NCBI GenBank assembly: GCA_902591275.1
Contig: CACJAC010000008.1
Location: forward strand, 1-43,599
Length of the DNA: 43,599 bases
Direction of reading: 5' to 3'
DNA from: an uncultured Prochlorococcus sp.
GTDB taxonomy: Bacteria > Cyanobacteriota > Cyanobacteriia > PCC-6307 > Cyanobiaceae
This document shows, piece by piece, positions 4,117 to 17,440 of the stretch. The notes beneath the pieces were generated by a model. It saw nothing but the letters and a program-made list of their open reading frames with translations. It had not been told where the DNA came from and searched no databases. Numbering within the stretch: position 1 is the first letter of the stretch; each line of letters opens with the position of its first letter. A program made the position numbers and the translations under genes.

Positions 4117-4797
4117 TTATCTAGAAGTTTTTATTTTTTTTTCTAAAGACATCTTTGATTTAATTCTTTTTGCTTCTTTGATCATTTCTTTACCATCAAA
4201 TAAGTAATTATCTACATATCCTTGTGTATATCTATCAAATTCTGATAGCGCATCTTTTACTTGTGAAAAACAATGATAAAGATCGAGGCCTAAAGCTGAA
4301 ATAGACTTTGGTACTATTTTTTTGTTATAAATTTTTTCAACTTTTTCTATTTTCTTTTGTGAAAGAATTATGTAACTGCAAAAATTTTCCATTAGTTGGT
4401 CATCATATGGATCCGCAGATAGTTCTTTTATTTCTTTATTCAAAGGTTTAATTATTTGACTAATTAGTCTATTTATCGGACTATAAATTTCTTTAATCCA
4501 TGTTTCAACTTCTTTGTCCTTAATTGAAGAATTATATTTTTTTGAATTAAATTTCTCTTCCCAATTTTCATTTAATGAATCAAATGATGAACTGGAAGAG
4601 AAAAAACTGCTATCGTATTGTTTCTTTTTGATAGGGTCATTCAGAGTTTCCCAGGCATTTTGTATTGCAAGAAATCGTTCTTTTTTACCGCCTGCATCAG
4701 GATGATGTTGCTTAACTAAAGAGCGATATGAAGATTTAATTTCACTTCTTGTTGCATTTTGTTTAAGACCTAATTCTTCATATAAATTTTTTCTCAT
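4117..4797 (-). CDS. J-domain (DnaJ-class) protein
   Basis: A 226-residue protein with an N-terminal J domain (residues 4-66), including the HPD tripeptide (32-34) that stimulates Hsp70/DnaK ATPase. A serine-rich linker (about 66-80) leads to a helical C-terminal half with no glycine/phenylalanine region, zinc finger or DnaJ C-terminal substrate domain. It is therefore a specialised type III J protein rather than DnaJ itself. Its client is unknown. It lies 16 bases downstream of cysK on the same strand. Confidence 0.85.
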   Translation of the reverse strand: MRKNLYEELGLKQNATRSEIKSSYRSLVKQHHPDAGGKKERFLAIQNAWETLNDPIKKKQYDSSFFSSSSSFDSLNENWEEKFNSKKYNSSIKDKEVETWIKEIYSPINRLISQIIKPLNKEIKELSADPYDDQLMENFCSYIILSQKKIEKVEKIYNKKIVPKSISALGLDLYHCFSQVKDALSEFDRYTQGYVDNYLFDGKEMIKEAKRIKSKMSLEKKIKTSR

Positions 4798-6930: not shown

Positions 6931-6940
6931 CATTTTATAT

Positions 6941-7000
<60 letters not shown>

Positions 7001-7012
<12 letters not shown>

Positions 7013-7064
7013 TTTTATATGTCTTAATTAGTCCAACAAAGACCCTATATGGGTCTTTTTTTAT
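7001..7064 (+). repeat. left attachment repeat (attL), 64 bp
   Basis: A perfect 64-bp direct repeat of 17097-17160, offset exactly 10,096 bp. It contains the last 12 bases of tRNA-Asn, a spacer and the intrinsic terminator. The flanking bases differ on both sides (C7000/A17096, G7065/T17161). A repeat of a tRNA 3' end on both sides of foreign cargo is the signature of tyrosine-recombinase integration. Confidence 0.93.
7038..7062 (+). terminator. intrinsic terminator after tRNA-Asn
   Basis: The 8-bp stem AAAGACCC/GGGTCTTT with a 5-base loop TATAT is followed by a run of T. It sits 25 bases after the tRNA and is duplicated inside the right attachment repeat. Confidence 0.85.
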
Positions 7065-7096
7065 GTCTGTCACTAGATTTTCATGTAATTAGAGAA

Positions 7097-7157
7097 GGAC
7101 TAGTAAGAACGGCATAGGACATTTTATTAGTCCATTATTAGTCACTTTACTAGTCCA
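7097..7157. promoter_or_regulatory. cluster of TAGTCC motifs, putative recombinase arm sites (module A, left)
   Basis: Direct copies of A(C/T)TAGTCC-type motifs start at 7126 (ATTAGTCC), 7137 (ATTAGTCA) and 7149 (ACTAGTCC), spaced 11 and 12 bp. An inverted copy is at 7097-7104, and a further direct copy lies inside the attachment repeat at 7027-7034. One-helical-turn spacing beside an attachment site is typical of integrase/excisionase arm sites. The function is inferred. Confidence 0.5.
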
Positions 7158-7176
7158 AATTCATGCTTCATTATTC

Positions 7177-9552
7177 TCAATTACCCCAGACTTTTTTAAT
7201 CCTCTCTTGAATTTTTTTGGTAAAGTTATCTGAAAGTTTTTTGTTACCCTCAGCAATTCCATTCTCAGATTCAATCCTCTCAACAATGCGTTTCATGTGT
7301 TCTCTTATTGGCACTGGAACTTTTATTGAGTTAAGGGTTGCTTGATTCAGTTTTGGTTGTGCTGAACCAGTTAGGTATGGTTCTAGTGAAATTTGATTGA
7401 AGTAGAACTCAACATATTTTTGAGTAATGCGGTCTTTGAAACGTAAAACATGTGCATGGTTGTTAACCCAAGTTTTGCCAGAAATGCTAAATGCTATTGG
7501 ATAATTTCTATCTTTGAGATTTGCACCATCTTCACTTATTAGAAGTAAATCTTCATCAAAAAGATATCCCTCAACATAATCAACGATGCCAGATGCTCCG
7601 TAATATGGAATCGCTCCTGTTTTTCTATCACCTTTAGTAATAGGAACTCTTCTGGAGTCTAGGTTTGCCTCATATAGATTATTTAACTCAACCATCTCCC
7701 ATGAAGGATCAATTTCGAATGTGGGTTTGTAGTGATCAATTACTTGCTTGCATCCATCAATAACTCTCTGATATCCCTCTAATTCATTAACTATACTTTC
7801 TTGCTCTTCAATAGGCGGGAGGGGTATTTCAATTTCAAGGAACTTTGCTTTAGTGATATGAGTCATGGTGTTCCCATGAACCATTTCTTCAATTCGTTCT
7901 TTGATTTTTAATCCCATAAAGTAAAGATATTTGGAAAGTATTTCTTCTTTTGGTTTTACTAAAAAAATGTGTTGGTTTAGCAGTGCTGATTCTCCTTCCC
8001 ATATAAAAACTCCTATTGTTCCAGACCATGATATGAGCAGATCTCCTTTCTCTACAAAATATTTTGGGTCGACCTCTAATTTTGTTTTATTAATACTTTT
8101 AGATGAGTTAGTAAGATTTTGAATCCTTATTATTGGTTTTCCTTCATGGGACCAATCTGATTGTTTAAAAGCAAATCCATTTTGAAAATTGGCAATCTCG
8201 CCTAGTTTGGTCATTGGAAAATTAGATAAACAAATTTCTTGTTCTAGATAATTACCAATTGATAAAGAAAAATCTTGTCTTTCTAAAATTTTATTCTTGG
8301 GGACTTTTTTTATTCCTTCGCCTTCATAATCCTCATTTTTAATTTTTTTTAGTAATACCGGGAGATCATTTTCAGCAAGTGGAGTTCTTTGAACACTAAG
8401 ACTAAATCCGTCATTATTAACTTTCGCAAAGAAAATTTCATCTGATTTCTGGTTTTTATTTTTATCTAAAATCAGAATTGATGTTTTGACTCCTGAATAA
8501 GGTTGAAAAACTCCAGATGGTAAAGATACAACACCAATTAGAGAGTCTTCAATCAATTTCTTTCTTAGCATTTTATATGCATTAACTCCCTGAAAAATAA
8601 TACCCTCAGGAACAATTATTCCAGCACGACCATGGGGTTTAAGATGCTCAATTATGTAGTCAACGAAAAGAACTTCTGCTCTAGTAGATTTAACTCCGAA
8701 TCTAGAATGAGGTTTTATCCCACCTGTTGGAGAAAAGAAAGGAGGATTTGCCAGAATTACGTCAAAATATTCATTCCATCTATCTTCAGAGGATAGAGTG
8801 TCATATTCGCTGATGTTCGGTCTAGCAAAGTTATGAAGATACATGTTTACCAAAGATATTCGTGTCATCGAGGGGTCAATGTCATATCCGATAAGATTGT
8901 CTCCAATTCTTTTTCTTTCTGAGGCGTTGAGTTTGTCTCCAATTCTTGCTTGAGTATTTTGAGTAAGAATATGTTTGTATGTAGAAATTAAAAACCCAGA
9001 AGTTCCACATGCTGGATCAAGTATAGTTTCATTCTTTTGAGGATTAACTATCTGAATAATGAAATCGATAATATGTCGAGGGGTTCTAAATTGACCTGCA
9101 TCTCCCTGTGATCCCATAAAAGAGAGAAGATATTCGTAGGCATTACCTAGTTGTTCTGAATTAGAATAATGAAATTTATTAATCTCTTTTAGAAACAGAT
9201 TTAAAGTAGTTGGATCTTTAAAAGGAAGAAATGAATTTTTGAAAATCTCCCTAAATATGTCAGGAGCATTAGGGTTATTGTATAAATTTTCAATCGCTTC
9301 ACTATATAGTTTTACTTTCTCAACTCCTCCTAATTTTGTATTGAATAGATGTTTCCAAGAATATTTTTTATATTCATCAACAAAGAAAGAGGGAACGCCA
9401 CCCATTTCAATTGCTTCATTATCCATGTCATGCATGAATTTATAAATTAAACCAGTAGTTATCTGTTCAACTTGACTTTGAGGACTTGGAATTTTTCCTA
9501 CAAGAATATTTCTAAGATCATCAATCCTTTTTTTTGTAACGCTATCCAACAT
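7177..9552 (-). CDS. hsdM: type I restriction-modification fused methyltransferase-specificity subunit (HsdM-HsdS)
   Basis: A 791-residue fusion. Residues about 1-440 are an HsdM-type N6-adenine methyltransferase, with GQFRTPRH (153-160), SAM motif DPACGTSGFL (179-188) and catalytic NPPF (269-272). Residues about 446-590 and 618-760 are two HsdS-type target-recognition domains, each followed by a conserved helical spacer; the first ends in IPLPPIEEQ. M and S are normally separate proteins (about 500 and 400 residues), so here both are on one chain with a shortened S part. It overlaps hsdR by 11 bases and is translated after it. Both half-site domains look intact. The recognition sequence cannot be read from the protein. 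Confidence 0.93.
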   Translation of the reverse strand: MLDSVTKKRIDDLRNILVGKIPSPQSQVEQITTGLIYKFMHDMDNEAIEMGGVPSFFVDEYKKYSWKHLFNTKLGGVEKVKLYSEAIENLYNNPNAPDIFREIFKNSFLPFKDPTTLNLFLKEINKFHYSNSEQLGNAYEYLLSFMGSQGDAGQFRTPRHIIDFIIQIVNPQKNETILDPACGTSGFLISTYKHILTQNTQARIGDKLNASERKRIGDNLIGYDIDPSMTRISLVNMYLHNFARPNISEYDTLSSEDRWNEYFDVILANPPFFSPTGGIKPHSRFGVKSTRAEVLFVDYIIEHLKPHGRAGIIVPEGIIFQGVNAYKMLRKKLIEDSLIGVVSLPSGVFQPYSGVKTSILILDKNKNQKSDEIFFAKVNNDGFSLSVQRTPLAENDLPVLLKKIKNEDYEGEGIKKVPKNKILERQDFSLSIGNYLEQEICLSNFPMTKLGEIANFQNGFAFKQSDWSHEGKPIIRIQNLTNSSKSINKTKLEVDPKYFVEKGDLLISWSGTIGVFIWEGESALLNQHIFLVKPKEEILSKYLYFMGLKIKERIEEMVHGNTMTHITKAKFLEIEIPLPPIEEQESIVNELEGYQRVIDGCKQVIDHYKPTFEIDPSWEMVELNNLYEANLDSRRVPITKGDRKTGAIPYYGASGIVDYVEGYLFDEDLLLISEDGANLKDRNYPIAFSISGKTWVNNHAHVLRFKDRITQKYVEFYFNQISLEPYLTGSAQPKLNQATLNSIKVPVPIREHMKRIVERIESENGIAEGNKKLSDNFTKKIQERIKKVWGN

Positions 9553-12007
9553 TTGCTAACCGTTCCAAATCAACATTTTCTTTAATGTAATTTGGAATTC
9601 CTTGTTTTAGTTCGATAGGTAAAGTTTTAAATGCTTCTCCTGATGGATGCACTCCTAGTTCTGCATATCTCTTGCTTTCGATAATATCTCTGAACTCTTC
9701 GTCTATTGCATATGCTTCAAATACTTCTTTTGCAATTGCATAAATTGAGTCATCTGGTTTTAATGCTTTATCTAATTTATCGAATTCTTCATCTAAACAT
9801 TCACGTTGAGAAGGTATATGAGGAATATGATCAAATGCATGAAGCAGAATTTCTTTCATTGAGATTTTTCTATCTATTCCAAGAGATTTTCTGAGTTTTT
9901 CAAGAGAGAAATATTCATCCGCTTTGTCTATAACTTTTTCATAAAGATATTTTTCCGCTTCATTAAAATTCTTTCTCTGAACTAACTCTCTCATTAATTG
10001 ATTTTCAGTTACTTTTCTTTTGAAAGAGGGATAAAGATCTCTATCAATTTTCATCCCTTTATTAGAAATTAAAATTTCTTTTATTTCTGCAATGGGATCT
10101 GGGATAGTGCTAATTACTTCTTCGATAGGTGGAGGTGGCGGTGTTGGATTTGTTCTATTTGACGGTTTGGACGGAAGTTTTATAACCTCGTCATAATCAA
10201 ATTCCTTTTCGAAGTATTCATAATTTCCAAAAAAGTCAAATAAAAGAAATTGTTTTTTATTGGCATCATTATCATCAGGAATTTCTGATTTTGATATCCA
10301 ATATTCTGAGAAATCACACTTTCTTGTTCCTCTTCCTTTCATCTGAATAAATTCACTTGGAGAGTAAACAGGACGCATCAAACAAATATTCAAAATATCT
10401 GTGCAGTCATATCCAGTTGTCATCATTCCAACTGTGACGCAAACTCTTGTTTTGGAAGTTCGATAATAGGGGTTTATTTTTGATTGTCCGTTTAGAGAGT
10501 TATTTCTAAAATTAGTCGTCATATTTTGAGAGTCTGTGATATCTGAAGTTACTTGAACTGCGAAATCAGAATTATATTGTTTTGGAAAAAGTTTTTCAGC
10601 GAGGATATTCAAAGTTTGAGTCACTTTTGAAGCATGATTTTGCGATACACAGAAAATCAGTGTTTTGCCTATTTCTGCCGTGTAGGGATCTTTGAGTGCA
10701 TTTTTGATAAATGTTTCAGCGAAAATCGTGTTTGTGTTCTCTGAAAAAAACTTTTTTTCGAAATCTTTTTGTTTGAATGATTCTTCACAATCATTCCCAT
10801 CTTCATCAACAATATTCAAAATATATCCTTCTTCAGAAAGCAATTGAGTTGTAATTTCTGTTCTAGCATCAATAACTTTAGGGTTCAGTAAATATCCATC
10901 TTTTACTCCATCTTCCAAAGAATATCTAAATGTAGGTTCACCGCTGTCGCATCCAAAAATAGTATAGGTATCGAGCATTAATCTTCTTTCTAACTGCTTT
11001 GGATTATTGATTTCAACTTCTTCAATATCAACTGATTTTAAGTAGTCCTTGGGAGTAGCAGTTAGACCTAATTTAAATCCAATGAAGTATTCAAAAACTC
11101 TCCTGCTTCTTGCTCCAAGAGAACGGTGTGCTTCATCAGAAATTACTAGATCAAAGTCGTCAGGTCGGAAAACTTTTCTATATTTATTCTTATTTACAAA
11201 AGATTGAACTGTTGAAATTACAATCTCTGCTCTTTTCCAATCTGACTGATTTTCTTTCCAAATAACAGAGTTAAAGTCATTTTTTAAAACGTCATCAAAT
11301 TCTTTCTGTGCTTGAGTTTCTAATTCAATCCGATCAACAAGAAATAGAATACGTTTTACGCTGTAACAGCGTAAAAACATTTTTATGATCGCAGATGAGG
11401 TAAGAGTCTTACCTGTTCCAGTTGCCATCTCTAAAAGAAATCTATCTTTGCCTTCTTGTATATCTTTTTGAACTGCCTTAACTGCCCCTAATTGATAATC
11501 TCGCAATATTCTCAGTTTGTTTTTTTTAAGAAAACCTGCTCTTTTAGTTTCATCAAGATAGTCAGGGTTTTGAAGAAAATTTGGTAGTTGAGTCTTAGCA
11601 ATGTAGAAGTTATCAATTGCTTCTGATTCTTTTCTAGGCGGATTAAAATTCGATTTTCTTAATTCGAGTTGTTCTTGCGAATAAAAAGAATTAACGATTG
11701 TCGGATTTCCTTGTTCAATATCCCAAAAATAATGTTGAAAACCATTCGACAATATTATGAATCGGCAATTTAGAGATTTTGCATAATCTCTTGCTTGTTC
11801 TTTGCCGTTTAATGGAGGAGTGAGTTCATTTTTTGCTTCAATTACGCAAAGCGGGAAGGTTGAACTATCGAATAGGACATAATCTGCTCTTCCAGATTTG
11901 TTTCTAGTTTCTGTATCTACATTTATTATTCCTTTATCTCCAGGTAAATTCCATCCAGATTCTCTAAGTAACTTATCAATTATTATCCTAGAATTTGCCT
12001 CCGACAT
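9542..12007 (-). CDS. hsdR: type I restriction endonuclease R subunit (HsdR, EcoEI-like)
   Basis: An 821-residue motor-nuclease. The N-terminal PD-(D/E)XK nuclease is visible as D42 in GRADYVLFD and E57/K59 in VIEAK. The SF2 translocase follows, with Walker A ATGTGKT (about 195-201), DEAH (291-294), LTATP and a motif VI QMKGRGTRK. A proline-rich linker (around residues 620-632, PTPPPPP) leads to an EcoEI-type C-terminal domain that docks on M/S. All catalytic motifs are present, so the enzyme should be active. With the fused M-S subunit it would cleave unmethylated foreign DNA. It is divergent from the 61-residue gene and 118 bp away from it. Confidence 0.94.
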   Translation of the reverse strand: MSEANSRIIIDKLLRESGWNLPGDKGIINVDTETRNKSGRADYVLFDSSTFPLCVIEAKNELTPPLNGKEQARDYAKSLNCRFIILSNGFQHYFWDIEQGNPTIVNSFYSQEQLELRKSNFNPPRKESEAIDNFYIAKTQLPNFLQNPDYLDETKRAGFLKKNKLRILRDYQLGAVKAVQKDIQEGKDRFLLEMATGTGKTLTSSAIIKMFLRCYSVKRILFLVDRIELETQAQKEFDDVLKNDFNSVIWKENQSDWKRAEIVISTVQSFVNKNKYRKVFRPDDFDLVISDEAHRSLGARSRRVFEYFIGFKLGLTATPKDYLKSVDIEEVEINNPKQLERRLMLDTYTIFGCDSGEPTFRYSLEDGVKDGYLLNPKVIDARTEITTQLLSEEGYILNIVDEDGNDCEESFKQKDFEKKFFSENTNTIFAETFIKNALKDPYTAEIGKTLIFCVSQNHASKVTQTLNILAEKLFPKQYNSDFAVQVTSDITDSQNMTTNFRNNSLNGQSKINPYYRTSKTRVCVTVGMMTTGYDCTDILNICLMRPVYSPSEFIQMKGRGTRKCDFSEYWISKSEIPDDNDANKKQFLLFDFFGNYEYFEKEFDYDEVIKLPSKPSNRTNPTPPPPPIEEVISTIPDPIAEIKEILISNKGMKIDRDLYPSFKRKVTENQLMRELVQRKNFNEAEKYLYEKVIDKADEYFSLEKLRKSLGIDRKISMKEILLHAFDHIPHIPSQRECLDEEFDKLDKALKPDDSIYAIAKEVFEAYAIDEEFRDIIESKRYAELGVHPSGEAFKTLPIELKQGIPNYIKENVDLERLANVG

Positions 12008-12125
12008 CGCAAAATTATTTCTATAAAAACTCTAATTTTCTGAATTATATTCTAAAACTAATAATTTTAATTTTTTAAGTAATTTAAAAGTTAATTATAT
12101 TGATAGTGAGATTGATACAAATTTA

Positions 12126-12311
12126 ATGCAACCTGCTAAAACGCCTGACGAACTGGCAGAAATGTATCCTGATTTAGAACCTTGGCAAAGGGATGAATTA
12201 GAAGTTTGGCACAGAGGATGGATTACAAAAATGATGACAGGAGGTGCGTCATCTGAAGAATATTATGCTGCAATTCCTCCTCATCCAGACCCTTATCATC
12301 CTGAGGATTAA
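12126..12311 (+). CDS. small acidic tryptophan-rich protein, unknown
   Basis: A 61-residue open frame, MQPAKTPDELAEMYPDLEPW onward, with three tryptophans, several acidic residues and a proline/histidine-rich C-terminus (PPHPDPYHPED). It has no HTH, membrane segment or signal peptide. Codon use and amino-acid order look natural, and it has its own space between hsdR and the module A right end, so I take it as real. It could be a regulator or an accessory to the restriction genes, or unrelated element cargo. No function is claimed. Confidence 0.6.
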   Translation: MQPAKTPDELAEMYPDLEPWQRDELEVWHRGWITKMMTGGASSEEYYAAIPPHPDPYHPED

Positions 12312-12332
12312 AGGGTTTAAAAGCACCAAAAT

Positions 12333-12352
12333 ACTAGTCCAAATACTAGTCT
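12333..12352. promoter_or_regulatory. paired ACTAGTC motifs, putative arm sites (module A, right)
   Basis: ACTAGTCC at 12333-12340 and ACTAGTCT at 12345-12352 are spaced 12 bp. They repeat the motif and spacing of the cluster at 7126-7157 and lie about 75 bp before the internal attachment remnant. This supports module A being a separate unit with arms at both ends. Confidence 0.45.
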
Positions 12353-12424
12353 TTTTGATGGAAATGACCAAAAATGATAAGACTTGTAAGGTCATTAGGC
12401 GACTTTGAGAGACATTGTGTCACT

Positions 12425-12437
12425 CGCCCGGGGAGTT
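12425..12437 (+). repeat. internal attachment remnant (third copy of the tRNA-Asn 3' end)
   Basis: CGCCCGGGGAGTT matches positions 7002-7014 and 17098-17110 exactly, then diverges. It is followed within 20 bases by a different intrinsic terminator, as expected if it was once the end of a tRNA gene locus. The match is short, but GC-rich strings like this are rare in such AT-rich DNA. Confidence 0.7.
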
Positions 12438-12452
12438 CAATCTCAGATTCTT

Positions 12453-12486
12453 AAGACTTCAAGTTATATCACTTGAGGTCTTTTTT
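12453..12486 (+). terminator. intrinsic terminator behind the internal attachment remnant
   Basis: An 11-bp stem AAGACTTCAAG/CTTGAGGTCTT (one T-G wobble) has an 8-base loop and is followed by T6. No gene on the plus strand ends just before it except the distant 61-residue gene, so it probably derives from a tRNA-Asn terminator. Confidence 0.75.
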
Positions 12487-12513
12487 AATCTTTATTTTTT
12501 GGATTTGATTAAG

Positions 12514-12532
12514 TATTGGGAATATGTTGGGA
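12514..12532. repeat. paired TTGGGA motif, putative arm site (module B, left)
   Basis: TTGGGA occurs at 12516-12521 and, as GTTGGGA, ending at 12532, with the TTGGG cores exactly 11 bp apart, shortly inside the module B end. The motif resembles the tandem GGTGGGGAAA at the other end of module B. Recombinase binding is only inferred. Confidence 0.35.
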
Positions 12533-12632
12533 GCAAGTTTTGATAATGGGGGGACTTTTAAATTTGTAGATCAAAAATTTTATGATTCCTTAATAAAATT
12601 TACTTAATCCAATATAAATCTTTTGAAATTAA

Positions 12633-12638
12633 TATAAT
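12633..12638 (+). promoter_or_regulatory. putative -10 box of the module B operon
   Basis: A perfect TATAAT lies 21 bp upstream of the ATG at 12659, giving a very short leader. No clear -35 box is visible 16-18 bp upstream. With the terminator at 12453-12486 in front, the three-gene operon appears to have its own promoter. Confidence 0.45.
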
Positions 12639-12658
12639 GTGTCAAAAGTTTAAAAAAA

Positions 12659-13276
12659 ATGAATATTGCCTTAATAATTGCATCAATTGCCAATCCAGTA
12701 ATTACTGGTCTATTGACTATTTTATTTTTTTTAGAAAGCAAAAAGTCTAAGAAACAGATTGAGTCTATTCAAAGTGCTCTCAATAACGTACAAAAAGAAG
12801 TTGTCAGCACAGTAATTTCTAGCGGAGATCAGATTAAAAACTCAATAGATAAGCAAAAAGATGATTTTACAAAATTGGCAGACAGACTAGAACTTCTTTC
12901 AAGAGATACAGAAGAGTCTGCTAAAAATTTTGTAGAAATTTCTGATGCGCTTACTAAAAGTTCTGCGGTTAGTAAAGAAGCACTTGGAAAGGTTACCACT
13001 GGTTTAGAAAATCATGCCAACTTGGTATCTGGACTAGTTACTGAATTAACTCAAAAGGTTTCAACAACAAGTGCCGATTCGATTAAAGATTTATCTACTC
13101 AGATTGGTAACGCTTTAAAGAGTGTCAATGAGAGTGTAGAAAAGATCGAGTCTTCTCAAGAAAAACTAAACTCATCCTTATCGAATGCGATAAATGATCT
13201 ATCTTCTAAGACTGAAAAAACAACTGATTCTATTAATTCTTTAAAAGAAACACTTAATTCAACAGTGTCTCTATAA
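12659..13276 (+). CDS. membrane-anchored coiled-coil protein, first gene of a putative defence operon
   Basis: A 205-residue protein. Residues 3-25 form one hydrophobic helix, followed at once by ESKKSKK; the positive-inside rule then puts the rest in the cytoplasm. Residues about 30-205 are almost entirely helical and low in glycine and proline, with many S, T, D, E and K, consistent with a long coiled coil. There is no MotA/ExbB-type channel domain, so it is not ZorA. It is followed after 5 bases by the 255-residue gene and then the helicase-nuclease, so the three are presumably one operon. A role as membrane anchor or sensor for the helicase is inferred from context. Confidence 0.75.
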   Translation: MNIALIIASIANPVITGLLTILFFLESKKSKKQIESIQSALNNVQKEVVSTVISSGDQIKNSIDKQKDDFTKLADRLELLSRDTEESAKNFVEISDALTKSSAVSKEALGKVTTGLENHANLVSGLVTELTQKVSTTSADSIKDLSTQIGNALKSVNESVEKIESSQEKLNSSLSNAINDLSSKTEKTTDSINSLKETLNSTVSL

Positions 13277-13281
13277 CAATA

Positions 13282-14049
13282 ATGTCTGATTTACTAAGCG
13301 AAAAATATCTTCTTTATCTAAGAGATATGAGTCGGAAAGTGGTATATGGTTCAGGTAGTTCTGGAAACTATTCTCAAGTTTTAATAAGAGGTTCTAAAGG
13401 AAAAAAAGCAAAGCAATTTCAAAGAATCACATCACTAAAGTTGAATAATATTATTGAATATTCATCAGATGGTTATCGCAGACAAACTGATCAAGAAAAG
13501 ATTGGTAACGGTATTTTTTGTGGAGTAGGAATTCTTTCTGGTACTTATACAAAGAAAGTAGGTTCAAATAGTGCTTTAAGGTTAATCGCTGCTCCAACCC
13601 TGTATGGTCAAGTTACCTTTGAAGATGATGGGGATTGGGAAATATCCGAGTGGGTAGTTAATTATGATATTGCTTCTGCACTCATTGCTAGAAATGCTGA
13701 TGAAGAGGAGGAAGCATTTGCAGCATTTGATCCAGAGAGTGATAAGACAGGGAGTCAAATAATTGAATCAATTGAAGAAAGTTTAGATAAATTAAAAGGT
13801 AATGATTTAACTATCCTAAACAAACTTTCTCTAAATTTTCTTAATGGATTCAAACAACTTACTGAAACACCTGCTGAAATAGTAGAAACGCCTCTAGAGT
13901 CAGTTACTGCTGCTATTAGTGCAAGAGATGAGAAAAAAATAAAGAAGTTCTTTTTCTGTCCAGGTGATTGGGTGTTTTTTGCACCAATTCCTCCTGGATT
14001 GAGCACGTATAGAGCACTTAATGACTTAGCGCAAGAGATAAGATTATGA
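13282..14049 (+). CDS. 255-residue protein resembling a detached N-terminal domain of a UPF1-like helicase
   Basis: I recognise no stand-alone family. Residues 75-130 contain GIFCGVGILSG, IAAPTLYGQVTFEDDGDW and VNYDIASALI. The C-terminus is FFFCPGDWVFFAPIPPGLSTY followed by LNDLAQEI. In many bacterial AAA_11/AAA_12 helicases an N-terminal region of this kind (an APL-type strand pattern, then a predicted N-terminal-to-helicase linker) precedes the Q motif. The gene overlaps the helicase by ATGA (14046-14049), so translation is coupled. The simplest reading is that one ancestral protein was split in two. An acidic stretch (DEEEE, about 160) lies between the halves. Function in the operon is inferred. 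Confidence 0.65.
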   Translation: MSDLLSEKYLLYLRDMSRKVVYGSGSSGNYSQVLIRGSKGKKAKQFQRITSLKLNNIIEYSSDGYRRQTDQEKIGNGIFCGVGILSGTYTKKVGSNSALRLIAAPTLYGQVTFEDDGDWEISEWVVNYDIASALIARNADEEEEAFAAFDPESDKTGSQIIESIEESLDKLKGNDLTILNKLSLNFLNGFKQLTETPAEIVETPLESVTAAISARDEKKIKKFFFCPGDWVFFAPIPPGLSTYRALNDLAQEIRL

Positions 14050-16811
14050 GTACGACTTTATCTCGCTTGCTAGATTCCGTTTTTTCTGGAACTAAATTTG
14101 TTCCTCAACACACTGGTATAGAAGAAAATGAAATTTTTGATGTCCTAGCGAGATTACCTTTTTCATTATCAAAGTCACAAAGGACTGCAATTTTTAGAGC
14201 ACTCAGAAATGACGTCTCATATATTCAAGGTCCCCCTGGTACAGGAAAATCATTTACAATTTCGGCACTTGCAATAGCGGCAAGTGAGTTAGGTTTGAAA
14301 GTTTTAGTTGCTTCTCAAAAAACTCCTGCAGTTGATATTGTGCATAAAAAATTGACAGATGTTTTAGGTGAATCTTCTTGTCTTTATATTTCGGATAATC
14401 AGAAAAAGAAAGAAAATATGCGAGCAATTATTGATTCTTTAATTGATAAATCAATAGATGTTCAAAATCCAATTGAAGAAAAAGAACTTAATAGGTTAAG
14501 TGCAAAAGTAAAAGCGTTAGTTGATGAGAGATTAGATTATGCAAAGAAAATCAGATTATTTGAATCTGAATTAAGAAACTTTTATGATTTGAACAGAAAT
14601 GCGCAGGATTATAAAAATATCCTTATTCAGGATTGGGGTTTAAGTAAATCAACAATAAAAAGCATTAATCTTATCCACAACCAGGCAAGCATCACAAAAG
14701 CAAAAGAATTAGTGAATGAATGCGAATTGATAAGAGAGAAATCTAGAAAAAATGCTGGCAAATTATCATTTAAAGATGCAATGAGATTAAAGATTCTTTC
14801 TTCAACTGTCCTTAAAGAATTTGATTTTAAATTAGAAGAATATAAAAAACATAAAGAAGAAGTTTTAATTAGATCTATTGATTATTCAAAGAATTTGGCA
14901 GATTCTCAAAATTTAAAAAGAATTATTAAAGACCAACCTCTTGAATCAAATAGAAAAACTTTTAATAGGAGGAATATGCAGTTATATCCCTCGAATATAA
15001 AGAATTCGATCTTATCTGAATACTTGGCAATTAGGAATTCTTTTAAAACAAATCAATTATTGCTTCAAAGAAAATATAGAGAAACACTTGATGCTTTTAA
15101 AAGAAGACTTAGATGGAAAAATGCAAAAAGAGCAAAAAAAGCAAATTCTGAAATTGATTTCAATTTACTTTTCAATGTTTTTCAAGTAATTATGGGTGAG
15201 ATTAAATCACTCCATCCATATTTACCTTTTCAGGAAGAACTATTTGATCTTGTGATTTTGGATGAAGCATCACAAGTAAATCTGGCAGAGATTTTTCCTA
15301 TTTTATTTAGAGCAAAAAGGTACTGTATTGTCGGAGATCATAATCAATTAGGAATCAAAGCAGGAGGGGTAATTTTTGTAAGCAAAGTTTTTGAAAAATT
15401 TACTTGGCAAAAATATTTTTCTTCACTTCCGAAATACCCAATAGATTATAAATCCGCTGAAGAAAGAGATTTATTAGTGTCTAGGTCATCAATCTTGAAT
15501 TTAATAAGAAATGATGAGAATCCAGTATCTGCAACTCCTGTTCAACTCAATGAACATTTTCGTTCTTTGCCAATGCTTGCAGAATTTACAAGTGATCAAT
15601 TTTATAAAAATGAAACTTCTGATTCTGGTTTGCGCATAATGACTGCATTACCTGATAAGAAAGCGATAAATGCATTTCAGAATATTGAAGTACAGACTAA
15701 AAGAGAAAAAAATTCTCAGATTAATAAAGGTGAAGTTGATAGAGCGTTTAAAATTATTGCATCAATAATTGCCGAAAAACCAAATCAAGATACAAATCCT
15801 GTTTTTGAGATACCTGACTTGAAAAACGGAAAAATTTCTGTAGGAGTTGTTTGTTTTATTAGAGATCAGGTGAACTATATGAAGGATGAAGCAGAAAAAA
15901 GATTTGATGATGATCAACGAGCAAAGATTTCATTAATGATTGGTACTCCAGAGGAATTTCAAGGAAATGAGAGAGATGTAATGATTTTCACGCCTGCAAT
16001 CGATGAGAATCAAAAAAGGTCTAGGGCATTTATGGAAGATTCCAATAGATTTAATGTTGCCACAAGCAGATCTAAATTCTTTACCTTTTTTGTTCATGGA
16101 AAAATTCCATCAAACATGAATTTAATGGAAAAAATGCTCACAAAAATGGGGCAAGGTAAAAGTGAAATTCAACAGATGGACGCTGGTTTTCTTCCGATTG
16201 GTTGGAGTTTTAAGAGATCAGCATGTGATTCTGATTTTGAAGAAGTAGTAGCGGATGTTTTGGAAAAGCAAATTGTAGATGAATTCCCTGAAAGACTAGT
16301 TTTATATAATCAAGTAAAAACATGTGGTTATAGATTAGATTTTGTTATTTACGATAAATTATCTAAAAAGGCGGTTGGGATAGAAGTTGATGGAAAACAT
16401 CATTATCTTGCAGATGATTCCTCTTATACCGACGAGCATTTAGAAAGAGCAAATTCATTAAAAAGAGCAGGTTGGATTATTAAATATTTACCTTATTGGA
16501 ATTGGTTTGAGGATGGTTGGATTGAAGATGATGCAGCAGCAGCAAATGATTTAAGAGAATTTATTAGGAGATTTTTTGCAATTGAAAATGAAGAGGAATT
16601 TAATCCTAGAAACACAAACGATAAACAACTTGTTGATCAAGAGAAAAAGGATTTATCTTCTGAAGAAACAAATTTCTTATCTATACCCCTATATTCCTCT
16701 GAAAGAACAGGTAGAGAAAGAACAAAACCTTTACCAAAAGAATTCCTCAAGGAATGGAATAAAGAGATACAAGAACGTGGTGATTTGAATCCAAAAAAGG
16801 AATTAGATTAA
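14046..16811 (+). CDS. SF1 (UPF1-like) helicase with C-terminal PD-(D/E)XK-type nuclease domain
   Basis: A 921-residue protein with all SF1 helicase motifs. Q motif LSKSQRTAIF (41-50), Walker A GPPGTGKS (62-69), Walker B DEAS (406-409), motif III GDHNQLG (430-436), motif IV EHFRSLP (503-509), motif V TPEEFQGNERDV (634-645) and motif VI NRFNVATSRSK (667-677). A helical insertion (about 140-390) sits between motifs I and II. Residues about 725-825 are a nuclease fold with D765 in RLDFVIYD and E780, D782 and K784 in GIEVDGKHHY, like the Vsr/MTES_1575 group. The charged tail (about 845-921) is unassigned. It ends 7 bases from the convergent AlpA-like gene. A nucleic-acid-degrading defence effector is the likely role. 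Confidence 0.88.
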   Translation: MSTTLSRLLDSVFSGTKFVPQHTGIEENEIFDVLARLPFSLSKSQRTAIFRALRNDVSYIQGPPGTGKSFTISALAIAASELGLKVLVASQKTPAVDIVHKKLTDVLGESSCLYISDNQKKKENMRAIIDSLIDKSIDVQNPIEEKELNRLSAKVKALVDERLDYAKKIRLFESELRNFYDLNRNAQDYKNILIQDWGLSKSTIKSINLIHNQASITKAKELVNECELIREKSRKNAGKLSFKDAMRLKILSSTVLKEFDFKLEEYKKHKEEVLIRSIDYSKNLADSQNLKRIIKDQPLESNRKTFNRRNMQLYPSNIKNSILSEYLAIRNSFKTNQLLLQRKYRETLDAFKRRLRWKNAKRAKKANSEIDFNLLFNVFQVIMGEIKSLHPYLPFQEELFDLVILDEASQVNLAEIFPILFRAKRYCIVGDHNQLGIKAGGVIFVSKVFEKFTWQKYFSSLPKYPIDYKSAEERDLLVSRSSILNLIRNDENPVSATPVQLNEHFRSLPMLAEFTSDQFYKNETSDSGLRIMTALPDKKAINAFQNIEVQTKREKNSQINKGEVDRAFKIIASIIAEKPNQDTNPVFEIPDLKNGKISVGVVCFIRDQVNYMKDEAEKRFDDDQRAKISLMIGTPEEFQGNERDVMIFTPAIDENQKRSRAFMEDSNRFNVATSRSKFFTFFVHGKIPSNMNLMEKMLTKMGQGKSEIQQMDAGFLPIGWSFKRSACDSDFEEVVADVLEKQIVDEFPERLVLYNQVKTCGYRLDFVIYDKLSKKAVGIEVDGKHHYLADDSSYTDEHLERANSLKRAGWIIKYLPYWNWFEDGWIEDDAAAANDLREFIRRFFAIENEEEFNPRNTNDKQLVDQEKKDLSSEETNFLSIPLYSSERTGRERTKPLPKEFLKEWNKEIQERGDLNPKKELD

Positions 16812-16818
16812 ACCCTAA

Positions 16819-17007
16819 TTACAATTTCTTTTTTTCTATCCATTCTTCAATTTCATATTTTATAAAAACTTTTATTCTTGGAGATAATTTTCTTTTCGAT
16901 GGGAATTCCCCTTTTTTGATTAATCGATTAATTGTTGAAACTGAAATGCCAAGTAATTTTGAAACTTCCTTGATAGTTAAAAAGGGGCGATTTTCTTGAT
17001 TATTCAT
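16819..17007 (-). CDS. AlpA-like helix-turn-helix protein (putative excisionase/regulator)
   Basis: A 62-residue protein with a MerR/AlpA-type HTH: FLTIKEVSKLLGISVSTINR (about 9-28), then a basic wing KKGEFPSKRKLSPR and IEEWIEKKK. AlpA-family proteins act as recombination directionality factors or activate excision of tRNA-borne prophages and satellites. It lies 90 bp inside the right attachment repeat, the usual place for such a gene. Directly upstream of its ATG is a tandem 11-bp repeat (17007-17028) that could be its operator. No integrase gene accompanies it. Confidence 0.85.
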   Translation of the reverse strand: MNNQENRPFLTIKEVSKLLGISVSTINRLIKKGEFPSKRKLSPRIKVFIKYEIEEWIEKKKL

Positions 17008-17028
17008 GGTGGGGAAATGGTGGGGAAA
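17007..17028. repeat. tandem 11-bp repeat TGGTGGGGAAA x2 upstream of the AlpA-like gene
   Basis: TGGTGGGGAAA at 17007-17017 is repeated exactly at 17018-17028. It abuts the start codon of the AlpA-like gene and lies about 70 bp from the right attachment repeat. It may be an autoregulatory operator, an excisionase/integrase arm site, or both. Confidence 0.6.
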
Positions 17029-17096
17029 TATATCAGAATCGCAAATTTCTTATGTCATATTCAGTCATACACCTTCAGGAAACATCACCCTGACTA

Positions 17097-17160
17097 CCGC
17101 CCGGGGAGTTTTATATGTCTTAATTAGTCCAACAAAGACCCTATATGGGTCTTTTTTTAT
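17097..17160 (+). repeat. right attachment repeat (attR), 64 bp
   Basis: Identical over 64 bp to 7001-7064. It carries the last bases of a tRNA-Asn end with no upstream tRNA body, so it is not a functional tRNA. The intrinsic terminator within it (17134-17158) is a duplicate of the one behind the real tRNA. Confidence 0.93.
17134..17158 (+). terminator. duplicate intrinsic terminator in the right attachment repeat
   Basis: Same AAAGACCC/GGGTCTTT hairpin and T run as at 7038-7062. No plus-strand gene ends nearby, except that read-through from the helicase gene would be stopped here. Confidence 0.8.
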
Positions 17161-17440
17161 TTCTTTACTTTTTTTGTCAAATGCTGGTTAGCCGAAATAA
17201 AATCAAGTATATTTGATATATTATTAAGAACAGTATATAGAACATTTTATATACTAATACTCATCTTTGATAAATTATATTTTAAAATTTAATAGGATTT
17301 TTTTAAGAACAGTAATTAGAACACTTACAAAAGCCTCCACAAAAATGAAAAAAAAATAAGCTCTTTGATTGATTTTCATTTTTAAAATTAAGATATATTT
17401 TAATTTGTATCTTTTAAATTAATTCACCGCGCAGGAAATT
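17161..17440. other. non-coding stretch with a 24-bp imperfect direct repeat
   Basis: No gene is seen. TTAAGAACAGTA + TATAGAACATTT at 17224-17247 recurs as TTAAGAACAGTA + ATTAGAACACTT at 17303-17326, with 21 of 24 bases equal. Each copy holds two GAACA boxes 12 bp apart. The stretch is otherwise AT-rich without a clear hairpin. It may hold binding sites for a regulator or arms of an older element. Confidence 0.5.

Follow-up and report, generated by a model that had tools for sequence, protein, structure and literature searches.

Putative integrase arm-type sites at both ends of an integrase-less gene island module at a Prochlorococcus tRNA-Asn gene

Results

The sequence analysed here, hereafter the window, is a 43,599-nucleotide contig (C8; CACJAC010000008.1) from an uncultured Prochlorococcus sp. 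(assembly GCA_902591275.1, genome G000; 1.08 Mb, 70% complete), and our subject is an eight-base word, A(C/T)TAGTCC, that is iterated at both ends of a cargo module within an island at the tRNA-Asn gene. To our knowledge, there is no clear answer to how gene islands that lack an integrase move in Prochlorococcus, a very abundant photosynthetic genus. The island consists of two core-bounded modules, A (7002–12437) and B (12425–17110), delimited by three copies of an attachment core, CGCCCGGGGAGTT, which represents the 3′ end of tRNA-Asn plus the next base (Table 1). Module A carries type I restriction-modification cargo, with attachment cores and word arrays at both ends; it has no excisionase-like gene and no integrase detectable with a profile of the integrase family found in genome G127 (described below). 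In two genomes with an empty site, G042 (L112) and G005 (L116; L numbers denote loci), sequence resembling the right flank of the island lies at most 60 bp after the tRNA, with identities to the window of 81% and 75%, respectively, in the right flank and 98% and 97% upstream.

Table 1. Coordinates of the tRNA-Asn island and of the word copies in the window; signed offsets are distances in bp from the nearest core.
Feature	Position	Strand	Remarks
tRNA-Asn(GTT), target of the islands	6940–7013	+	ARAGORN
Attachment core 1, CGCCCGGGGAGTT, reaching into the tRNA-Asn gene at its 3′ end	7002–7014	+	Same 13 bp again at 12425 and 17098
Terminator-like hairpin segment, left end of module A	7015–7068	+	Contains the 7027 copy; segment varies among elements of different words
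Inverted arm-like site, +95 from core 1	7097–7104	−	In 5/6 left ends of this word type
Left arm-like site ATTAGTCC, +124	7126–7133	+	+124 to +126 in G127, G034, G202, G250, G027
Left arm-like site ATTAGTCA, +135	7137–7144	+	+135 to +137 in G127, G034, G202, G250, G027
Left arm-like site ACTAGTCC, +147	7149–7156	+	Last copy of the left array of the window
Module A cargo: fused type I methylase and specificity subunit	7177–9552	−	PF02384, PF01420; PADLOC MTase_I, Specificity_I
Module A cargo: type I restriction subunit HsdR	9542–12007	−	HSDR_N, ResIII
Right arm-like site ACTAGTCC, −92 from core 2	12333–12340	+	Equal offset in G127 right end
Right arm-like site ACTAGTCT, −80 from core 2	12345–12352	+	Equal offset in G127 right end
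Attachment core 2, shared boundary of modules A and B	12425–12437	+	Repeat of core CGCCCGGGGAGTT
Module B left-end word, TTGGGA type, two copies 11 bp apart	12514–12532	+	Found by eye; unlike the module B right-end word
Module B cargo: coiled-coil protein, open reading frame without PADLOC match, AAA helicase-nuclease (Mokosh-like hits)	12659–16811	+	
AlpA/HTH_17 excisionase-like gene	16819–17007	−	PF12728 4e-13, PF05930 9e-12; PHROG excisionase families
Module B right tandem pair ATGGTGGGGA ×2, 11 bp apart, 71 bp from core 3	17006–17026	+	
Attachment core 3, closing the island on the right	17098–17110	+	Flank beyond it matches empty-site genomes

All seven copies of the word listed in the initial annotation are present, at 7027, 7097 (inverted), 7126, 7137, 7149, 12333 and 12345, and the spacings of 11, 12 and 12 bp between adjacent copies are correct. 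Five of them match A(C/T)TAGTCC exactly, whereas the last base differs at 7137 (ATTAGTCA) and 12345 (ACTAGTCT). Pairs of AYTAGTC on the same strand at a distance of 11 or 12 bp occur only at these three places in the window. The clusters at the module ends are likewise confirmed; the accompanying statement that none was recognised inside the genes does not hold at one mismatch, with copies at 8149, 8615, 10511, 11041 and 11925 inside the genes of module A, and further exact 8-mers lie elsewhere in the window (5253, 13031 and 37666, the last two on the reverse strand, and 17123). Matches with at most one mismatch number 58 in the window, against 46.7 ± 6.6 expected (5 of 100 shuffles reached as many). 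The exact 8-mer occurs 72 times in the assembled genome, compared with 68 copies of the reversed control. The single 8-mer is thus at background frequency, and the signal resides in the phased array and its position. Since this is so, the genome-wide count that had been proposed as a check is misleading: taken at face value, it would wrongly refute the arm-site idea. Even a degenerate pair of words 12 bp apart showed no overall enrichment in 266 genomes of the same genus: it matched 14 times, in 11 genomes, and the control 11 times; eight of the 14 stand at tRNA-Asn island ends (two each in G000 and G127, one each in G034, G202, G250 and G027) and six elsewhere.

The arrays recur in a relative, G127 (L017). 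Its homology to the window ends with the left array, at 7155, and resumes at 17093; in L019 and L020, too, it stops at 7155. Between these breaks G127 holds an element of 7,990 bp from core to core. Inside its right end the word pair is found again, together with a 414-residue PF00589 integrase and an excisionase-like gene of the HTH_17 type (23.5 bits, under the curated cut-off of 27). The left copies lie at +124/135/147 in the window and at +125/136/148/168 in G127, the outer copy at +168 being present in L017 and L019 and missing in module A, and the right copies lie at −92 and −80 in both. The left array of this word is adjoined by other genes in G034, G202 and G027 and by a related methylase-specificity gene in G250; no second exact core was found in G202 or G034.

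The inverted copy at 7097 appears to be part of this array. In left ends with words of the TTCGTC type, their own word stands inverted at +94/95 in five of five cases (+105 in L078, where the other copies have likewise moved by 10). The copy at 7027 (+25) is present in four of the six left ends with the word of the window and in none of the five TTCGTC-type left ends examined. As the 7097 copy tracks the word and the 7027 copy does not, the former belongs to the array and the latter probably does not. The suggestion in the initial annotation that the 64-bp repeat carries an arm site is thus probably incorrect, at least for a functional site; the repeat (64/73 bp) is the terminator segment of the A-type left end. 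A terminator-like hairpin follows directly behind the tRNA core in the window and in L017, L055, L056, L058 and L059, and differs from element to element, as if each supplied its own. To the right of core 3 (17092–17164) the window has the terminator of the A-type left end, where the flanks in G127, G042 and G005 have another; the repeat copy at 17098–17164 may have arisen by a short conversion or be left over from an earlier element.

A search with the G127 integrase returned 24 matches in 22 of the 266 genomes. We counted 22 loci, leaving aside L047 (no tblastn match) and L048 (a 61-residue fragment), and used wider DNA around 20 of them and L017, with L046 as it was. An upstream tandem—exact, at least 9 nt, period 10–13, at least three G or C, 100–1000 bp upstream of the integrase—was found in 18 of the 22 loci, compared with 29 of 316 controls, each a 900-bp window from the same loci, some of which contain ends of other elements. 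It was not found in L017 (7 nt), L053, L060 or L046. The 9-nt tandem of L067 lies 151 bp from the gene, has no convincing repeat at the tRNA and may be due to chance. The word differs between integrase lineages: at tRNA-Asn we found TCCCCACCAT, TTTCCCGACC, TTCCCAACAT, ACCAGAACGA and ACTAGTCC, and at tRNA-Ser other words again. On the tRNA side, the locus's own word recurs at least twice within 400 bp in 12 of 14 tRNA-containing loci (none in L062, one in L067); for this comparison the word was hand-picked, with the tandem results in view, at the loci with two tandems (L055, L056, L058 and L063), and L064–L066 are near copies of one another. The copies in L055, L056, L058 and L059 lie 131–143, 142–154 and 164–175 bp from the tRNA, L059 lacking the middle one at this stringency. 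A scan of viral contigs using these integrases yielded none.

The G127 integrase has a PF00589 catalytic domain (4e-10), in which R256, K285, R353 and Y387 are invariant in 21 of 21 homologues and H350 is kept in at least 90%, so that R, K, H-x-x-R and Y are all present. A profile built from 21 integrases aligns at positions 8–91 with the 88-residue CP4-like integrase domain 3jtz (E 5e-4) and at positions 107–327 with lambda integrase. We take 3jtz to be the domain with which the HPI integrase binds arm-type sites. A structural model of a homologue, built from a seven-sequence alignment (predicted template-modelling score 0.46), has a four-stranded sheet and a helix at residues 32–97, and its best fold matches, of modest confidence, are lambda Int complexes (E 5e-7, template-modelling score 0.32–0.38; 0.32–0.48 for the longer lambda matches, with identities of 11–14%). 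Together, profile and model indicate a predicted separate N-terminal arm-binding domain in the G127-type integrase. Such domains are described as a mark of mobile-element integrases in the excerpt of PMC8138268 consulted, which also lists a reference on their structures.

Five close integrases, 63–82% alike outside the N-terminal domain, allowed word and domain to be compared in 10 non-independent pairs, the words of L052 and L054 being based on the right pair alone. Word difference correlated with N-terminal identity (rho −0.65, P 0.04) but not with the rest of the protein (rho 0.13), and with N-terminal minus rest identity the values were rho −0.62 and P 0.06, a hint that arm word specificity may go with the N-terminal domain.

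The joined form of such a site may be represented in L076, where a 5,943-bp unit carrying a related integrase is present in about two copies on one contig (99.2% alike over 6,280 bp; the repeat pattern fails over the first ~340 bases). At the junction, three words (4002, 4023, 4034) are followed by the core (4164–4177) and two words (4251, 4262), the right pair starting 74 bp from the core. This attP-like order has the layout expected of attP; either a circle or a tandem insertion would fit. L076 (NHGE01000070.1) is filed as a metagenome-assembled genome of Euryarchaeota, with an integrase and a tRNA-Asn core as in Prochlorococcus, and is perhaps a mis-binned circular element.

The core CGCCCGGGGAGTT is present in 205 of the 266 genomes. 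A survey of elements between cores covered the listed core positions (genomes up to G128) on contigs with at least two cores within 20 kb. The 35 listed contigs, 32 of them new (L078–L109) and three already known for their integrase (L017 from G127, and L056 and L058 from G043 and G045), contain 42 elements, to which we added window A, window B, L055 and L059 for a total of 46. A right-end word pair (9 or more of 10 positions identical, with a period of 11 or 12, possible at 55–103 bp from the core) was found in 38 of the 46, and in 37 of these it lies within 68–74 bp of the core; the corresponding figures for the listed 42 are 34 and 33. Control windows and shuffled windows gave 12 pairs in 2,560 and 4 in 2,300, respectively. 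In elements longer than 400 bp with a right pair, we asked whether the same word recurs at least twice in the left end with at most one mismatch: it does in 20 of 31 (18 of 27 within the listed 42), compared with 8 of 782 pairings of different words. The right-end words form 14 clusters, or about 13, as those of window A and L017 are the same word in a shifted frame. The integrase profile identified an integrase in five of the 46 elements (3 of the listed 42; recombinases of other families were covered only by inspection of the open reading frames of at least 110 aa in 13 of the larger elements), 21 of the 46 have an excisionase-like gene, and 19 of the listed 42 are shorter than 1.3 kb, too small for an integrase gene.

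Discussion

On the right of the tRNA-Asn core the word arrays stand at a nearly fixed distance, and on the left they take one of a small number of distances. The word changes between integrase lineages while the layout stays, and most elements tested have the same word at both ends. Repeated words on both sides of a core, at set spacing, constitute the architecture of arm-type sites, to which an integrase would bind. We consider it highly probable, judging from these comparisons, that a tyrosine integrase uses the iterated words as arm-type sites and that module A is integrase-less type I restriction-modification cargo, presumably movable in trans by a cognate integrase of the G127 kind. The initial annotation had named either an integrase or an excisionase as the protein reading them; the integrase is well supported, both by the same arrays and offsets in integrase-bearing G127 and by related integrases that have other words in a similar layout.

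Binding of the arrays would fall to the N-terminal domain of the integrase and action on CGCCCGGGGAGTT to its other domains, and the enzyme would bridge arms and core. Excision would join both arms around a single core, giving attP, and integration at the tRNA gene would separate them again. Module A, which has the sites but no enzyme, probably depends on a relative's integrase to move, and would be excised and reintegrated in trans by a cognate one of the G127 kind. Elements with different words at one tRNA would each have an integrase of their own kind, and neighbouring islands in a tandem could then move independently.

Several findings weigh against this interpretation. We infer binding of the arm sites and movement of module A from sequence patterns. 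No G127-family integrase was matched in G000, whose assembly is incomplete as stated above, so that a helper in the cell of the window is a candidate only; the one PF00589-like open frame of this genome (L016:468–1754, 429 codons, under the curated cut-off) is tyrosine-recombinase-like but of another family, does not match the integrase profile and has no tRNA within the 3.2 kb examined. A clear right pair was not found in 8 of the 46 elements, and the left-right word test failed in 11 of 31, among them window A, owing to differing flanking bases, and window B, where a match was expected but the two ends carry different words. The left offsets do not form one set: a left match exists in 21 elements, at 110–177 bp after the core (often 121/132/154) in 15 and at 57–120 bp in six (L084, L087, L089, L101, L106 and L108). 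Related words also match across elements, with three hits of the L055 word in L056, two of the L058 word in L065 and L066, and two of TCCCAACAACA in L058. Where an element bears AlpA, its right pair may adjoin the start codon of xis, and an operator role is possible there. Finally, module A, lacking the outer copy at +168 and failing the strict left-right test, could be a decayed relic.

This last alternative, in which the words are former arm sites of an element that is no longer mobile, is the most serious one, and we regard it as a real though lesser possibility. Besides the missing outer copy, it is consistent with the lack of a family integrase and of xis in module A and of a family integrase in the assembled genome. 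The cores and most word copies are nevertheless intact at both ends of module A, and among the listed elements only 3 of 42 have an integrase, yet 18 of the 27 testable ones keep matching end words, a pattern that use in trans fits better; that 19 of the 42 could not hold an integrase gene tempers this argument. If the words were instead sites for an excisionase, that is, an AlpA/Vis-like recombination directionality factor, rather than for the integrase, the presence of such a gene in 21 of 46 elements and the contact of the right pair of window B with its start codon would be explained. Directionality factors mostly bind one arm. The words stand at both element ends, they are kept in elements without an excisionase-like gene, window A among them, and in our small test their differences track the N-terminal domain of the integrase, which together make excisionase sites improbable. 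Operators or promoter elements for the cargo or for tRNA-proximal transcription would be compatible with phased repeats, which are typical of operators, and with the right pair of window B abutting a gene start; the left array of module A, however, sits downstream of the methylase stop, and the constant offset of the arrays from the core despite unrelated cargo largely refutes this explanation, to which we give very little credence. Chance clustering of a common AT-rich word could be argued from the genome and genus counts (72 versus 68 for the 8-mer, 14 versus 11 for the degenerate pair), but position, layout and the matching of words at both ends are so far from the controls that we consider it refuted.

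We compared the arm-site interpretation with known systems through excerpts of the papers cited in this and the next paragraph, and statements about them apply to those excerpts. The nearest architecture found is the attP of mycobacteriophage Pixie, with two plus three direct copies and one inverted (PMC3203893); related phage integrases at the same site use other arm words, with CrimD repeats of 11 bp (PMC3203893). Common to both cases are short repeats in pairs or triplets around a tRNA or tmRNA core and related integrases with different words (PMC3203893), whereas the phages encode their own integrase and here 3 of 42 listed elements do, with about 13 right-word clusters at one tRNA. The integrases of the P4/CP4/HPI type and of lambda resemble the G127 family in the N-terminal profile match to 3jtz and the lambda Int fold match, and differ, as compared by sequence and model, in low identity and in other arm words and targets.

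Tycheposons are described second-hand as Prochlorococcus cargo islands at tRNA genes with tyrosine recombinases (PMC10872708, PMC11389934). The modules of the window resemble them as cargo elements of Prochlorococcus bounded by a tRNA-Asn core; these second-hand descriptions mention no arm-type sites (PMC10872708, PMC11389934). In the same descriptions a tycheposon carries a tyrosine recombinase of its own; no integrase of the G127 family was matched in modules A or B or in G000, and we therefore do not class the two modules as tycheposons. In Dehalococcoides, ssrA islands without an integration module are regarded as cis-mobilizable and thought to move with their neighbours (PMC3146451). These islands hold cargo flanked by attL and attR, lack an integrase and stand in tandem at a single RNA gene (PMC3146451); module A has this arrangement, and its movement by a relative would be the counterpart. 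Those islands are tied to a serine recombinase, whereas here matching arm words would indicate the likely helper.

Arm sites as such are of a known kind; what is new is the many arm words at one tRNA, mostly without an integrase. More tentatively, with the chances somewhat short of even, a single Prochlorococcus tRNA gene may serve as about a dozen recombination addresses, each word being recognised by a particular integrase lineage through its N-terminal domain, and a mostly integrase-less cargo pool may be moved in trans by a few autonomous elements, the word naming the helper. If so, orphan islands could be matched from their sequence to the integrase able to move each, tandem islands at one tRNA could be told apart, island boundaries would be precise even without an integrase, and the integrases would form a natural series of differing arm specificities, useful for understanding how the N-terminal domain reads DNA.

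Module B and mini-elements

The cargo of module B resembles defence genes, namely a ZorA-like coiled coil (weak similarity) and the helicase-nuclease with Mokosh-like hits. The integrase profile found no integrase of the G127 family in this module. The start codon of its excisionase-like gene is in contact with the right pair (17005–17026), a hint that this gene is autoregulated. With its mismatched ends, module B may be a recombinant of two elements. Seven mini-elements of the survey (L081, L083, L091, L092, L095, L097 and L102) have 169–247 bp between two cores and a right pair without matching left copies; solo ends or minimal relics are candidate readings for them.

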